Assembly (NCBI GenBank): GCA_001800135.1
Contig: MGUU01000025.1
Coordinates: forward strand, 1-64,000
DNA length: 64,000 nt
Direction of reading: 5' to 3'
Source: Elusimicrobia bacterium RIFCSPLOWO2_02_FULL_39_32
GTDB lineage: Bacteria; Elusimicrobiota; Elusimicrobia; 2-02-FULL-39-32
Position numbers and translations under genes: made by a program. The stretch's first letter is position 1. Each line of letters begins with the position of its first letter. Of the stretch, positions 49,160 to 54,751 are shown one piece after another. Below the pieces are notes generated by a model, which made no database searches, was not told where the DNA came from, and saw only the letters and a program-made list of their open reading frames with translations.

Positions 49160-49783
49160 ATGAAAATTAAAAATTTAGCGTTGCTATTGGCAGGGACATT
49201 GTACTTCAACGTTTTCTCCAGTTCTCAAATCATGGCAGCAAGCAAAAATAATAGGATACTTGTAGCTGTGATACCGTTTACCTACAAAGCTGAAAATCCA
49301 AAGTATGCAGGCATAGAAGAAGGATTAGCGCAAGCTGTGTCATCAGAATTAGTCAAAAAAAAAGTTTTTAGAATTATTGAAAGAGAGCGGGTTGACACTC
49401 TGCTTAAAGAAATAAAGTACCAGCAAATGGGCATAGTCAATCCTGAAACCGCGCTTCAATTAGGAAAACATTTAGGCGCTCAAGCCTATCTTTTGGGTTC
49501 AGTAGTTTCGGTTTCCGTTAGGGATGAATGGCGCAGCGTAAAGTTTGCTGAAAAAACAGTGCGTTTTGTGGAAGTTGAAGCAGAGGTAAAAATCGTGGAT
49601 ATTCAAACTGGCGAGGTGTTAGGCTCTGGCAGAGCTATTGGAAAGTCGAAAACTGCTGAAAAACATGCGTTTGGCGGAAAAATCGGCGATTTAGCAACCA
49701 TTCAATCCATGACCCAAAAAGCTGTACAAAATCTTTCAGAAAAACTTTCCAAGGATTTGGTGAAAACCTATAAAAGCGAATAA
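49160..49783 (+). CDS. CsgG/HfaB-like exported protein
   Basis: A signal peptide (NLALLLAGTLYFNVFSSSQIMA) precedes a CsgG-type domain: LVAVIPFTYKAENPKYAGIEEGLAQAVSSELVKKKVFRIIERERVDTLLKEIKYQQMGIV and LGAQAYLLGSVVSVS, then a membrane-spanning-like AEVKIVDIQTGEVLGSGRA strand set. No lipobox cysteine is seen, unlike CsgG itself. It may act as an outer-membrane secretion pore or periplasmic sensor. A TAACAT-T-ATGTTA palindrome (49127-49139) lies in its leader. It leads the cluster with a beta-barrel and a caspase lipoprotein. Confidence 0.82.
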   Translation: MKIKNLALLLAGTLYFNVFSSSQIMAASKNNRILVAVIPFTYKAENPKYAGIEEGLAQAVSSELVKKKVFRIIERERVDTLLKEIKYQQMGIVNPETALQLGKHLGAQAYLLGSVVSVSVRDEWRSVKFAEKTVRFVEVEAEVKIVDIQTGEVLGSGRAIGKSKTAEKHAFGGKIGDLATIQSMTQKAVQNLSEKLSKDLVKTYKSE

Positions 49784-49826
49784 AATAATTCTAGAAACCT
49801 TTAAATAAATAGAGGGGGTGCTTCAG

Positions 49827-50615
49827 ATGAGAATTCAAAGAATAAGATGGATATTTATAGCAATCATAATGACCAGTCTTGGGTTTGCGCAATGGATTCA
49901 AGCGGAGGATCGCCGCACCGATGTTCCAAATGGGTTTTTTAACATGGTGGTAGGTTTTACTTCTGTCAGCAATACGAATGTAACAATAAGCGGCAATAAA
50001 GCTAGTTGGGTGGGTTTAAGCGGAAATGATTTTTCCGTTGATCTTAAGGAAATGAAACAGCAAAACAATATTTGGGGAGGTTTTGCTTTGGGCTACTGGT
50101 TTAAACAAGCCCCTTTGTCTTTTGGCATTTCAGGCGCAATGGATTTTTATCCGGCGATTATTAGCGAGCAGACAAAACAAAACGTATCCTATGTTGTAGA
50201 AGGCAAACCTGGAACTTTCACTTCATTTACAAAGTACCGCACCCGAGTCACTCAAATTGTTCCTGCATTCAATATCATTGTGGGACTACCCCTTAAATTT
50301 GTTCGCGTTTATGCTGGAGGAGGTCCTGGAATATTCTATTCCCTTTACTCCTTTACAGTTAAAAATAGCGCGGGCAAAGAACTTGGGCAAGTAACTGCAA
50401 TGGATACAAAGATTGGTCTTAACGCATTTGCTGGAGCAGAATTTTTTATTACCAGACGCGTTTCTGCCTTTGTGGAAGGAAAATATTCTCAAGTGAATGA
50501 TTTAACATTTCAGCCGGATAAAAGCGATCCTTTGGTTGCCGGCAGAATTGTCCGCGATGAATATGACAGCATTAAAACACAAAGAGCAGGGGTAGGGATT
50601 TCCATACATTTTTAA
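49827..50615 (+). CDS. outer-membrane beta-barrel protein
   Basis: Start taken at ATG 49827 because AGAGGGGG lies 8 nt upstream; a GTG at 49818 falls on that site. A signal peptide (WIFIAIIMTSLGFAQWIQA) is followed by alternating strands of an OmpW/OmpA-like eight-strand barrel: WGGFALGYWFKQAPLSFGISGAMDFYP, VYAGGGPGIFYSLY, LNAFAGAEFFITRRVSAFVEGKYSQV and a terminal phenylalanine (GISIHF). No specific ligand can be named. It sits between the CsgG-like and caspase genes. Confidence 0.8.
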   Translation: MRIQRIRWIFIAIIMTSLGFAQWIQAEDRRTDVPNGFFNMVVGFTSVSNTNVTISGNKASWVGLSGNDFSVDLKEMKQQNNIWGGFALGYWFKQAPLSFGISGAMDFYPAIISEQTKQNVSYVVEGKPGTFTSFTKYRTRVTQIVPAFNIIVGLPLKFVRVYAGGGPGIFYSLYSFTVKNSAGKELGQVTAMDTKIGLNAFAGAEFFITRRVSAFVEGKYSQVNDLTFQPDKSDPLVAGRIVRDEYDSIKTQRAGVGISIHF

Positions 50616-50669
50616 ACCGAACATCGCGCTTATAAAAATGAAAGTTTCGAGTTAAAGGGAGGACTGCTT

Positions 50670-52019
50670 TTGTCTAATTTTAATTTAGGAATTATTCTCC
50701 TTTTTTTAACCGGTTGCGCGCCTGCCGGTTTTGTGGAGACAACTGCAAATGTCATTGATGAAATGACCGCTTTTCGTTACGCTAGAAAACTGAACACGCG
50801 TGAGGCATGGGAAGACTTCATCCGCAGGTATCCAGAGAGTAGAAAAGCTAAACAAGCCCAACAGTGGGTGAGAATGATGCCCGACCAAACTTCTTCTTCA
50901 ACCTACCTTCAGGAAGAAATCCGCAAAGCTGAGCAAGAAAGAATTGAGAAAGAGAGAGCAGCGCAAGAACTAAAAAACAAAGAGGAAGAGACAAAACTTT
51001 TAGAGGAGCAAACAAAAGCTGAAAGAGATGTAAATCAGATGGAGATAGAGACGATGCAACAATCGGCTGAACTGAAGAATTCTATTTTGCTGGCTGAACT
51101 AAAAAAGCGTGAAGAAGAATTAAATCGAAGGGAAGAAGAACTTAAGAAAAAAGAGGCAGAGCTTGCGCAAGGGATTGTCTCTGATCATCTTAAATTGTCT
51201 GAAGATATTGATGTGGTTCCAAGAGGGGGTCTGCCTCAACATGAAGAAAATTTTGCGATTGTGATTGGAATTGAAAAATACCGAGACATTCAAACCCCTG
51301 CAGATCATGCAGAAAAAGATGCGCGCACCATGCTGCTTTATTTAAGGGATTTCTTGGGTTTTCCTGAGCAAAATATTAAATTTTTAGGGAATGACCGGGC
51401 CACGCGCTCAGATTTTTCCAAAGAAATTGAACTTTGGCTGCCTTTAGTCGCAACAAACGAATCTAAAATTTTTCTTTATTTTTCAGGTCACGGCTCTCCT
51501 GATCCAAAAAGCGAAGAGGCATATTTACTTCCTTACGATGGAGATCCAAGAGCTCTTGAGATTACCGCTTACCCTTTAAAACGGCTTTATGAAAAAATGA
51601 ATGAGCTGCCAGCTAAAGAAATAGTGATTGCGTTGGATAGCTGCTTTTCTGGCGCTGGCGGAAGATCTGTTCTGGCTCAAGGAGCAAGGCCCCTTATAAC
51701 AAAAATTGAAACTGGAGGAGTATCGCCGGCAGGGAATCTAGTAGTGTTTACTGCGGCATCAGGCTCAGAAATTACTGGAAGCCATGAAGATCAGAAACAC
51801 GGACTTTTTACTTATTTCTTTTTAAAAGGGCTAAGAGGAGATGCTGACACTGACCATGACGATTGGGTTTCAATTCAAGAAGAGTATGCTTATCTTAAAA
51901 AAAATGTTGCTGTATCAGCGCGGCGCAATCTTAGAGATCAAAACCCCCAATTATTTCCGGATATCGCATCCCTTGGCGAAAAAGCAATGCAAATAAAATT
52001 GTCTAAACCGCAAAAATAG
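50670..52019 (+). CDS. caspase-like (peptidase C14) lipoprotein with coiled coil
   Basis: Starts with TTG at 50670 after GGGAGG. A lipoprotein signal with LFLTGC (C16) is followed by a Glu/Lys-rich coiled coil (residues ~80-170) and a caspase domain (~190-430). The catalytic dyad is H274 in FSGHGS and C325 in LDSCFSGAGGR. The S1-pocket region and later TAASGSEITGSHEDQKHGLFTYFFLKGLRG are of the C14 type. Active-site residues are intact. The target is unknown. Lipidation puts the caspase in the envelope, not the cytosol, which is unusual for bacterial caspase homologues. Confidence 0.9.
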   Translation: MSNFNLGIILLFLTGCAPAGFVETTANVIDEMTAFRYARKLNTREAWEDFIRRYPESRKAKQAQQWVRMMPDQTSSSTYLQEEIRKAEQERIEKERAAQELKNKEEETKLLEEQTKAERDVNQMEIETMQQSAELKNSILLAELKKREEELNRREEELKKKEAELAQGIVSDHLKLSEDIDVVPRGGLPQHEENFAIVIGIEKYRDIQTPADHAEKDARTMLLYLRDFLGFPEQNIKFLGNDRATRSDFSKEIELWLPLVATNESKIFLYFSGHGSPDPKSEEAYLLPYDGDPRALEITAYPLKRLYEKMNELPAKEIVIALDSCFSGAGGRSVLAQGARPLITKIETGGVSPAGNLVVFTAASGSEITGSHEDQKHGLFTYFFLKGLRGDADTDHDDWVSIQEEYAYLKKNVAVSARRNLRDQNPQLFPDIASLGEKAMQIKLSKPQK

Positions 52020-52086
52020 ATGTCGGGATCTTTCCCTTGATTTTGTGAACAACAGAATAAGTCCAATGGTTTAATTTTTTTATTGA

Positions 52087-52674
52087 CTAGGGGGTCCTCA
52101 TTTTTTTAAGCAGGCGTGAGATTTTCTCAAAAATGCCGGGTTCAAACTCATTTAGAAGTTCTCGGTCCATTCTTTTTAAACGGACAAAAGCGTCTTGTTC
52201 AGCTTTCTTGTACTTTCTGCGAAACTGGTCTTCAAAATCTGACAAAATTCCAAGCATCACTTCACAGTACTGTTGGAGTAGTTCCATATTGCTCTTAGGC
52301 GGGATGGATCGCCCCAAGGCTCGGTAATCATCTTTTAAAGATTTTATAATATCTAAAAGTTTCTCTTTTGTTTGGGAATCATCCAAAGTTTTATCTAGCG
52401 TTTTTAAGTCAGATTTAATTTTAGATCTGATGGAATGAAAATCCAAACCTTCTCGGATATCCGTTCTTGCAGCAAGAGGGGATATCCGAGATTTTGGCGC
52501 GCACGCGGTAATGCTGATTACAAGAAGGAGCAGGAAGAGCACGGTTGAATTTGGAATGCGCATTCCCTTCGGCATAGAATTTTTACTGCGCGATCTCCCT
52601 TTTGATTTCTTTGCTGAGATTATGCCTGTGATCGTTCTTACTTCCGGAAGCAGTTTATCTCTGTGCGGCTTCAT
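52087..52674 (-). CDS. small lipoprotein of unknown function
   Basis: The longest frame has 195 residues, but the lipoprotein signal (MRIPNSTVLFLLLLVISITAC) begins within it, so the true start is likely the ATG at 52575 or 52563. No convincing ribosome site decides between them. The mature part is helical (SKIKSDLKTLDKTLDDSQTKEKLLDIIKSLKDDYRALG, ending EFEPGIFEKISRLLKKM). No family is recognised. It is convergent with the caspase gene. Confidence 0.6.
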   Translation of the reverse strand: MKPHRDKLLPEVRTITGIISAKKSKGRSRSKNSMPKGMRIPNSTVLFLLLLVISITACAPKSRISPLAARTDIREGLDFHSIRSKIKSDLKTLDKTLDDSQTKEKLLDIIKSLKDDYRALGRSIPPKSNMELLQQYCEVMLGILSDFEDQFRRKYKKAEQDAFVRLKRMDRELLNEFEPGIFEKISRLLKKMRTP

Positions 52675-52675
52675 G

Positions 52676-52860
52676 CTATTCTTGGTAATAGTCGCAATCC
52701 ATAGCTAAACAAACCTCCGCCTTTTTCAATTCCTTTCCCAAATAGGCCGCATGATCAAACCTTTTGAACCATCCCAGACCATGTTGATCGCTGTAATCAA
52801 AGACAGCAGTATAAATATCTTGGCTCCTGCGCCCGCGAAATTCTTTTAGAGTCGAAAGTC
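52676..52860 (-). pseudogene. open remnant without a start, similar to DUF4346-type proteins
   Basis: One minus-strand frame stays open for ~60 codons and reads LKEFRGRRSQDIY, then HGLGWFKRFDHAAYLGKELKKAEV. The HAAYLGKELKKAE block resembles the DUF4346 / MtrA-like family (HxAYLGREL.KAE). There is no start codon or ribosome site in the right place, and an in-frame stop closes it upstream. It is probably the tail of a decayed gene between the lipoprotein and hemerythrin genes. Confidence 0.35.
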
Positions 52861-52864
52861 TAGG

Positions 52865-53290
52865 TTAGTTTAACTTCTGAAACGTTACTTTAATTTCTTC
52901 CAAGGACAAAGTTTGATCTATCCAAGGATATAAAACGTTTTCTTCTTTTACGTTATGGGAAGATAGGATGCCAAAAAGTTGAGATTCCAGAGATTCCGTC
53001 TCAAAATTTCTTTTTAAGATCTGATCATAAATACTGCTCAGCAATTTTTTGATTTGAATATGCTCCATTCTCATAACGGCTGTCGGCCCGCCTTGCATAC
53101 CGGTCCTTTCTTCAAAGATTGGGAATAGAATCTCTTCCTCCCAAACAATATGCCTTTCCAGCCCGGACTTAAAATCAAAGAATGACTTTTTGACATTCTC
53201 AGGCTCTGTAATTTTCTTGCTTTGGAACTCCTTGAAAAGGCCGTCTAATCTGTCATGGTCTTTGCTCATAAAATCAGCGATTCCGTTCAT
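52865..53290 (-). CDS. hemerythrin-like HHE-domain protein
   Basis: Start taken at ATG 53290 (MNGIADFMSKDHDRLD), since GGAGGAG lies 9 nt upstream; the longer frame to 53341 would overlap the MarR gene. Di-iron ligands are seen in KDHDRLD, GLERHIVWEEEILFP, RMEHIQIKKLL and SSHNVKEENVLYPW. The protein binds O2 or nitric oxide, or supports iron-sulfur repair. It is cotranscribed with a MarR regulator that carries a cysteine tail, which suggests a redox or NO-responsive unit. Confidence 0.85.
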   Translation of the reverse strand: MNGIADFMSKDHDRLDGLFKEFQSKKITEPENVKKSFFDFKSGLERHIVWEEEILFPIFEERTGMQGGPTAVMRMEHIQIKKLLSSIYDQILKRNFETESLESQLFGILSSHNVKEENVLYPWIDQTLSLEEIKVTFQKLN

Positions 53291-54122: not shown

Positions 54123-54196
54123 TGGCTGCCGGGCTAGGACTCGAACCTAGAATAGACGATTCAGAGTCGTCTGTATTACCATTATACTACCCGGCA
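54123..54196 (-). tRNA. tRNA-Gln (CUG), CCA encoded
   Basis: Minus strand. The acceptor TGCCGGG pairs with CCCGGCA; the discriminator G is followed by an encoded CCA. The anticodon stem-loop is GACGA CTCTGAA TCGTC with anticodon CTG; the T loop is GGTTCGAGTCC. The U1-A72 first pair is usual for tRNA-Gln. The 3' end of the LAGLIDADG-like ORF overlaps its first 15 nt. Confidence 0.93.
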
Positions 54197-54751
54197 ATTA
54201 AAATCTCTAAAATTGATTTCGCGTATGAATTTTTTAGCTTCTGCTTTTCTAGCTAATCGTACATAATCGCTATGTTTTTGCGGGTTGTAACCTAAGGTGA
54301 TAAGTCCTTCATAAACATCTTGCAGAAGATTTTTACATCTATTTGTGAAATCTAATACAAATGTATAGTTATGTGGTTGCTCATAGCAGCTGCCATCTGT
54401 TTCAAAAAGATCCCTTAAACAAAATTTTAAAAACGAGTTATTTTGTTTTATCCAATCAGGAATTCCCAAGTTATTTTTTATTTTATTTCCGATAGGAAAA
54501 CCGATTGCCTTAGCCACACCTTTTCTATAAAATAAGACACGAATACAATTTTTACCTTTTTGCTTTTCAATCTTTGGGATTATTTCAAAAACCTTATTAA
54601 TTAAAGAAGATACATAATTAATTTGATCCGGAGAACGAGAATCTAAAGATATTAAAAATCTTTCTGTTCGAGATACATTAGTTAAACACCCATCTCCCAA
54701 AAAAATTCCTACGAGCTCTGCAAGTTCTGAATTATATCGTAAAGGAAGCAC
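54182..54751 (-). CDS. LAGLIDADG-like homing-endonuclease-type protein, freestanding
   Basis: The 189-residue protein has two degenerate LAGLIDADG helices: LAELVGIFLGDGCLT near residue 10 and FCLRDLFETDGSCY near residue 108, with the DG acids in place. The C-terminus RLARKAEAKKFIREINF resembles the tail of such tRNA-linked proteins. It lies between gltX and tRNA-Gln on the same strand, and its last codons overlap the tRNA. No intron or intein host is visible. Current nuclease activity is unknown. Confidence 0.75.
   Translation of the reverse strand: MLPLRYNSELAELVGIFLGDGCLTNVSRTERFLISLDSRSPDQINYVSSLINKVFEIIPKIEKQKGKNCIRVLFYRKGVAKAIGFPIGNKIKNNLGIPDWIKQNNSFLKFCLRDLFETDGSCYEQPHNYTFVLDFTNRCKNLLQDVYEGLITLGYNPQKHSDYVRLARKAEAKKFIREINFRDFNCRVV

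Follow-up and report, generated by a model that had tools for sequence, protein, structure and literature searches.

Discussion of caspase-type proteases in bacteria has mostly treated them as enzymes of the cytosol with a link to cell death or defence. Outer-membrane lipoproteins bound to a barrel are represented by RcsF, a sensor held by OmpA, and pairs of a lipoprotein and a barrel can expose the lipoprotein at the cell surface. A metacaspase survey published in 2012 found none in the Elusimicrobia genomes then available and described 46 domain-only sequences in which a single N-terminal helix might represent a signal peptide (Asplund-Samuelsson et al. 2012, PMC3501461). A literature search whose coverage left out most subscription journals found no paper that describes a C14 protease with a lipid anchor in bacteria. 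The locus analysed here, from the genome of Elusimicrobia bacterium RIFCSPLOWO2_02_FULL_39_32 (2.52 Mb, 97% complete), encodes a predicted protease of this kind next to a predicted outer-membrane barrel.

The window, a stretch of 64,000 nucleotides, carries the cluster as three ORFs on one strand separated by 43 and 54 bp (Table 1), and an earlier sequence-only reading had given this layout and its positions correctly. Promoter and terminator scans of the cluster remained at background level, and no terminator between the three genes exceeded it. The segment 3' of the caspase gene (52041-52873) is variable: in the sister species G001, the only genome of the same genus searched, an unrelated ORF (L030:5728-6117) takes the place of its lipoprotein-like ORF (52087-52674). 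A free-standing LAGLIDADG endonuclease ORF (54182-54751, minus strand) beside gltX is likewise missing from that position in G001.

Table 1. Features of the three-gene locus, in window coordinates
Feature	Position	Strand	Basis
Gene 1, CsgG/LpoB-like periplasmic protein, signal peptide, no lipobox	49160..49783	+	PF03783, PF13036; solitary orthologs
Gene 2, predicted 8-stranded outer-membrane beta-barrel, signal peptide, C-terminal Phe	49827..50615	+	AlphaFold2, Foldseek
Gene 3, predicted lipid-anchored C14 caspase-type protease, 449 aa	50670..52019	+	PF00656, NF047832 (sub-cut-off), AlphaFold2, Foldseek
Lipobox Cys16 codon, LTGC-APAGFVET box	50715..50717	+	Invariant in 10 barrel-linked lipoproteins and 30 relatives
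N-terminal three-helix TPR/BamD-like region, residues 25-69	50742..50876	+	Model, tblastn
92-residue helix, residues 77-168	50898..51173	+	AlphaFold2
Caspase-type catalytic domain, residues 190-449	51237..52016	+	PF00656, alignment, AlphaFold2, Foldseek
Predicted catalytic His274 codon, SGHG	51489..51491	+	Invariant in alignments A1 and A4
Predicted catalytic Cys325 codon, DSCFSG	51642..51644	+	Alignments
EF-hand-like loop DTDHDDWVSIQE, residues 393-404	51846..51881	+	Alignment A5

The product of gene 3 matches PF00656 with an E-value of 1.4e-12 (48 bits, cut-off 21.4), while the best NCBIfam match of its catalytic domain, the EACC1-associated caspase NF047832 (3.3e-23), scores 82.3 bits and thus falls below the curated cut-off of 140 for membership. 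The AlphaFold2 model (pLDDT 87, pTM 0.62) consists of three short helices, a 92-residue helix and a caspase domain, and its Foldseek matches include MALT1 (3.6e-11), Geobacter GSU0716 (4.9e-11) and metacaspases. The His274/Cys325 dyad lies at exactly the residues where it had been read; in a 30-row alignment the His is invariant and the Cys nearly so, and among 166 relatives almost every one retains both. The caspase fold and the intact dyad are seen in sequence or prediction, protease activity being putative. Two candidate S1 residues, Asp217 and Asp323 (two before Cys325), are invariant in the 30 rows of alignment A4. They would correspond to Asp95 and Asp211 of TbMCA2, which are acidic S1-pocket residues (PMC6426788), Asp217 by profile alignment and Asp323 by its distance from the Cys. 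The EF-hand-like loop is of the DxDxDGWVSVDE type in orthologs (alignment A5) and may bind Ca2+.

A lipobox within the signal peptide, together with an LspA in the genome (3.4e-38), predicts that the protein is lipidated, although translation starts at TTG and the signal n-region carries neither Lys nor Arg. Cys16 is invariant across the 30 relatives of alignment A4, rows which were chosen for a lipobox-like start. The ten barrel-linked lipoproteins that were aligned, some with a caspase domain and some lacking it, were not chosen by lipobox, and Cys16, Ala17 and Gly20 show no exception among them. The claim of an envelope-anchored caspase-type protease with a lipoprotein signal is well supported. 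Behind the anchor, the modelled helices 25-41, 44-53 and 58-69 form a TPR/BamD-like region that is common, by tblastn, to barrel-linked lipoproteins without a caspase; a YfiO match of a relative is weak and below threshold. What had been called a long coiled coil stands as a long helical segment, modelled as one 92-residue helix (block pLDDT mostly 86-94) of about 14 nm if straight.

Lipoprotein signals are the rule in this branch of the C14 family, for which the earlier statement that bacterial homologues are usually cytosolic is not supported. With a home-made heuristic rule, not SignalP, a lipobox was detected in 109 of 165 sampled caspase relatives and a possible Sec signal in 36 more, while the same lipobox rule fires on 4% of other long ORFs (16 of 418). 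The exported branch is abundant in environmental Elusimicrobiota and also occurs in Nitrospirota and Deltaproteobacteria-type genomes. Tandem lipo-caspases at loci L094 and L095 include one copy without the catalytic Cys (MDAGFSG, MDSSFSG), possibly a pseudo-enzyme beside an active one. The window genome itself has a second lipo-caspase, with ankyrin repeats, outside the window (L032:5879-7318; G000:C25, about 81.9-83.3 kb), which overlaps the end of a CsgG+DUF4384 gene near a PQQ/BamB-like gene and is kept in G001.

The main rival to the reading preferred below takes the lipo-caspase as a conflict or death effector, acting in phage defence, as an interbacterial toxin or in envelope suicide, from a fast-turning family with variable N-terminal sensors. 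Such a family would agree with the 4-16 caspase copies per genome found in one Elusimicrobiota family, with patchy presence, with gene decay in G001 (see below) and with diverse N-termini, which are ankyrin (Pfam), Sel1/TPR-like, PDZ-like (Sel1 and PDZ judged by eye) or unrecognisable. In a PADLOC scan of the three genes, the caspase model also matches gene 3; however, the match is limited to the shared catalytic domain, the barrel and the CsgG-like gene remain without a match, and membership of the cluster in a defence system was rejected on that basis. No known defence partner was matched beside the window locus, and the signal peptides would take the protease out of the cytoplasm, to a compartment in which phage replication is not sensed. 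An effector role is considered unlikely.

The barrel identity of gene 2, already proposed from its sequence, agrees with an AlphaFold2 model of eight long beta-strands (mean pLDDT 82, pTM 0.73), with Foldseek matches to the outer-membrane barrels OmpT, OmpA, OmpW and OprG, with a signal peptide and with a C-terminal IHF; nothing in Pfam matches above cut-off. A signal peptide, a closed even-stranded barrel and a C-terminal aromatic residue are what is expected of an outer-membrane beta-barrel, as which the protein is predicted. The genome encodes three Omp85 proteins. The preferred start is the ATG at 49827, 9 nt after GAGGGGG, a site that the GTG at 49818 overlaps. A barrel of this kind could also thread or flip its partner outward, pairs of the RcsF/OmpA type being able to expose lipoproteins at the surface, so that the lipo-caspase would be a surface-exposed nutritional or matrix-processing protease, and OmpT-family surface proteases are among the top structural matches of the barrel. 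The OmpT likeness is, however, confined to the shape of the barrel (TM-score 0.45, 12% identity), an eight-stranded barrel leaves no room for a folded domain, and the pair has no conserved secretion partner, all of which make surface exposure quite improbable.

Among 341 Elusimicrobiota genomes, 13 have the barrel family, and in four of these the barrel comes with a lipo-caspase. The four are the window genome, Elusimicrobia bacterium GWA2_66_18 (G040, MGTX01000031.1) of the same class, and G206 and G215, which are probably RBG_16_66_12 (L125) and REEB337 (L127), as the barrel and caspase match values are equal. In all four the two genes share a strand and are separated by a few to 54 bp, and no CsgG gene was found beside the pair in G040, G206 or G215. 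In the caspase-domain tree the four copies form one clade (100% SH-aLRT) with the truncated LacPavin copy (L126), whose neighbours cannot be judged because the caspase begins at a contig end. One clade of the exported caspase branch is thus tied to a specific outer-membrane barrel.

In five further genomes (G052, G046, G229, G210 and G225) the gene after the barrel encodes a lipoprotein that has the same anchor box but a TPR-like part in place of the caspase. The shared start consists of the lipobox Cys, Ala, G-x-V-E-T or a variant, and a repeat-like segment W..(F/Y)(I/L)..YP; in a second copy, in G229, only the anchor box is found, and the barrel stands without a lipoprotein in G044, G048 and G054. 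As the barrel adjoins a lipoprotein with this anchor even where the caspase is missing, it is with the N-terminus of the lipoprotein that the barrel belongs. Three of the caspase-bearing genomes have a receiver-domain gene upstream, and so does G210, where it is 81% identical to that of one caspase-bearing genome; the same locus therefore seems to hold either output module, as if C-terminal modules had been exchanged at it. This arrangement is the strongest sign that barrel and lipoprotein N-terminus act jointly, with the caspase added to them as a module. The conserved unit is thus the barrel and lipoprotein pair, without the CsgG-like gene, in a few other Elusimicrobiota; a barrel partner is well supported for the caspase, which looks like a module swapped onto a barrel/lipoprotein scaffold.

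Gene 1 was rightly described as a CsgG-type protein with a signal peptide (PF03783, 1e-14; PF13036, 1.9e-8), of Sec type and with no Cys in the signal region, where three distant orthologs do carry one. The description of it as secretion-pore-like finds no support at the sequence level. The likeness to the CsgG curli secretion channel lies in the CsgG/LpoB-type soluble domain detected by profile, whereas the match to the channel structure (PDB 4uv3) is weak (E=0.05). The stretch RDEWRSVKFAEKTVRFVEVEAEV of gene 1, highly charged and rich in Lys, Arg and Glu, aligns with GGVGARYFGIGADTQYQL, which we take to be the first transmembrane hairpin of CsgG. The hydrophobic transmembrane beta-hairpins of CsgG are absent from gene 1 in this alignment, and at the level of sequence a CsgG secretion pore was rejected for gene 1.

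Orthologs of gene 1 in four further genomes (38-59% alignment identity) are solitary, away from any barrel or caspase. In G001, gene 1 is 96% identical, and a deletion of 2.0 kb has taken the barrel and caspase residues 1 to about 368 (82% of the caspase). A frameshifted caspase remnant of 265 bp (92% identity) persists there; the difference is therefore a deletion in G001, and an insertion in the window genome was rejected. Gene 1 remains under purifying selection in G001 after this loss (dN/dS 0.12, similar to neighbour genes), and the function of the pair is dispensable, at least in G001. The three genes had been proposed as a unit whose refutation would be neighbours not conserved in close relatives. 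Judged by gene surroundings in 60 relatives and across 341 genomes of this phylum, conservation of the trio was rejected, and the CsgG-like gene drops out of the unit.

At the level of the family, a looser link between CsgG and lipo-caspases exists in Elusimicrobiota, though not for the window trio. CsgG-like domains lie beside or are fused to lipo-caspases in 9 pairs against 0.8 expected (7 against 0.8 without G001), counted by hand under a Poisson model in genomes chosen for their caspases; the nine include the decayed G001 remnant. CsgG genes had at first seemed to adjoin 38 of 96 lipo-caspases, but most proved to be matches to the DUF4384 region once the domains were split. Outside Elusimicrobiota, an ORF with this region lies near a lipo-caspase in 21 of 46 loci (L130, L134, L160, L188 and others). 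A true three-component envelope machine, in which the CsgG-like protein works with the barrel and the caspase, is highly doubtful, since the single strand, the short gaps without a terminator above background and the excess of pairs, to which the second caspase locus of the window genome belongs, are set against other pairs lacking an adjoining CsgG, solitary close orthologs and the selection that persists on gene 1 alone.

The reading preferred here, which is given about an even chance of being correct, is a two-gene operon in which a processing protease, tethered to the outer membrane and docked to the barrel, works in the periplasm and responds to outer-membrane state, with no need for the CsgG-like neighbour. 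The lipoprotein would be sorted to the outer membrane, where its lipid and N-terminal three-helix region may dock it to the barrel, as guilt by association suggests, and the helix of about 14 nm, directed inward, would carry the protease domain into the periplasm. By analogy with TbMCA2, Asp217 and Asp323 would set cleavage after Arg or Lys, not Asp, as in orthocaspases and metacaspases. Activation may be gated by the barrel, by Ca2+ at the EF-hand-like loop or by a disordered loop after Cys325. Envelope-stress processing, probably gated by stress or a signal, is the role chosen here. The G001 deletion, the TTG start, the lack of a basic n-region and the three barrel genomes without a lipoprotein count against this reading.

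More tentatively, the barrel and lipoprotein anchor may form a scaffold for exchangeable periplasmic output modules, one of them an apoptosis-type protease, which would make this a caspase system for signalling or processing outside the cytoplasm. If the predictions hold, a caspase-type protease would act at the outer membrane, where what it cleaves and what triggers it must be unlike the substrates and triggers of known orthocaspases. The pair is a small testable system, for which the barrel-lipoprotein pairs without a caspase provide a natural control.

Among known systems, the barrel resembles the OmpA/OmpX/OmpW-type barrels in being small and eight-stranded and differs in having no sequence family match. 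As in RcsF-OmpA, a small barrel is paired with a predicted outer-membrane lipoprotein, whose output domain is, in contrast, a putative protease, no Rcs pathway being implied. Gene 3 is closest in NCBIfam to the EACC1-associated caspases (NF047832), from which it differs by its sub-cut-off score and its predicted export. The 2012 survey had no metacaspase from Elusimicrobia, whereas up to 16 per genome were found here in environmental Elusimicrobiota. With the bacterial C14 orthocaspases and metacaspases (PF00656; PMC3501461), gene 3 shares the predicted fold, the His/Cys dyad and the varied extra domains, with candidate acidic positions for a basic P1 residue, and it is set apart by its predicted lipid anchor, its barrel partner and its long tether helix.
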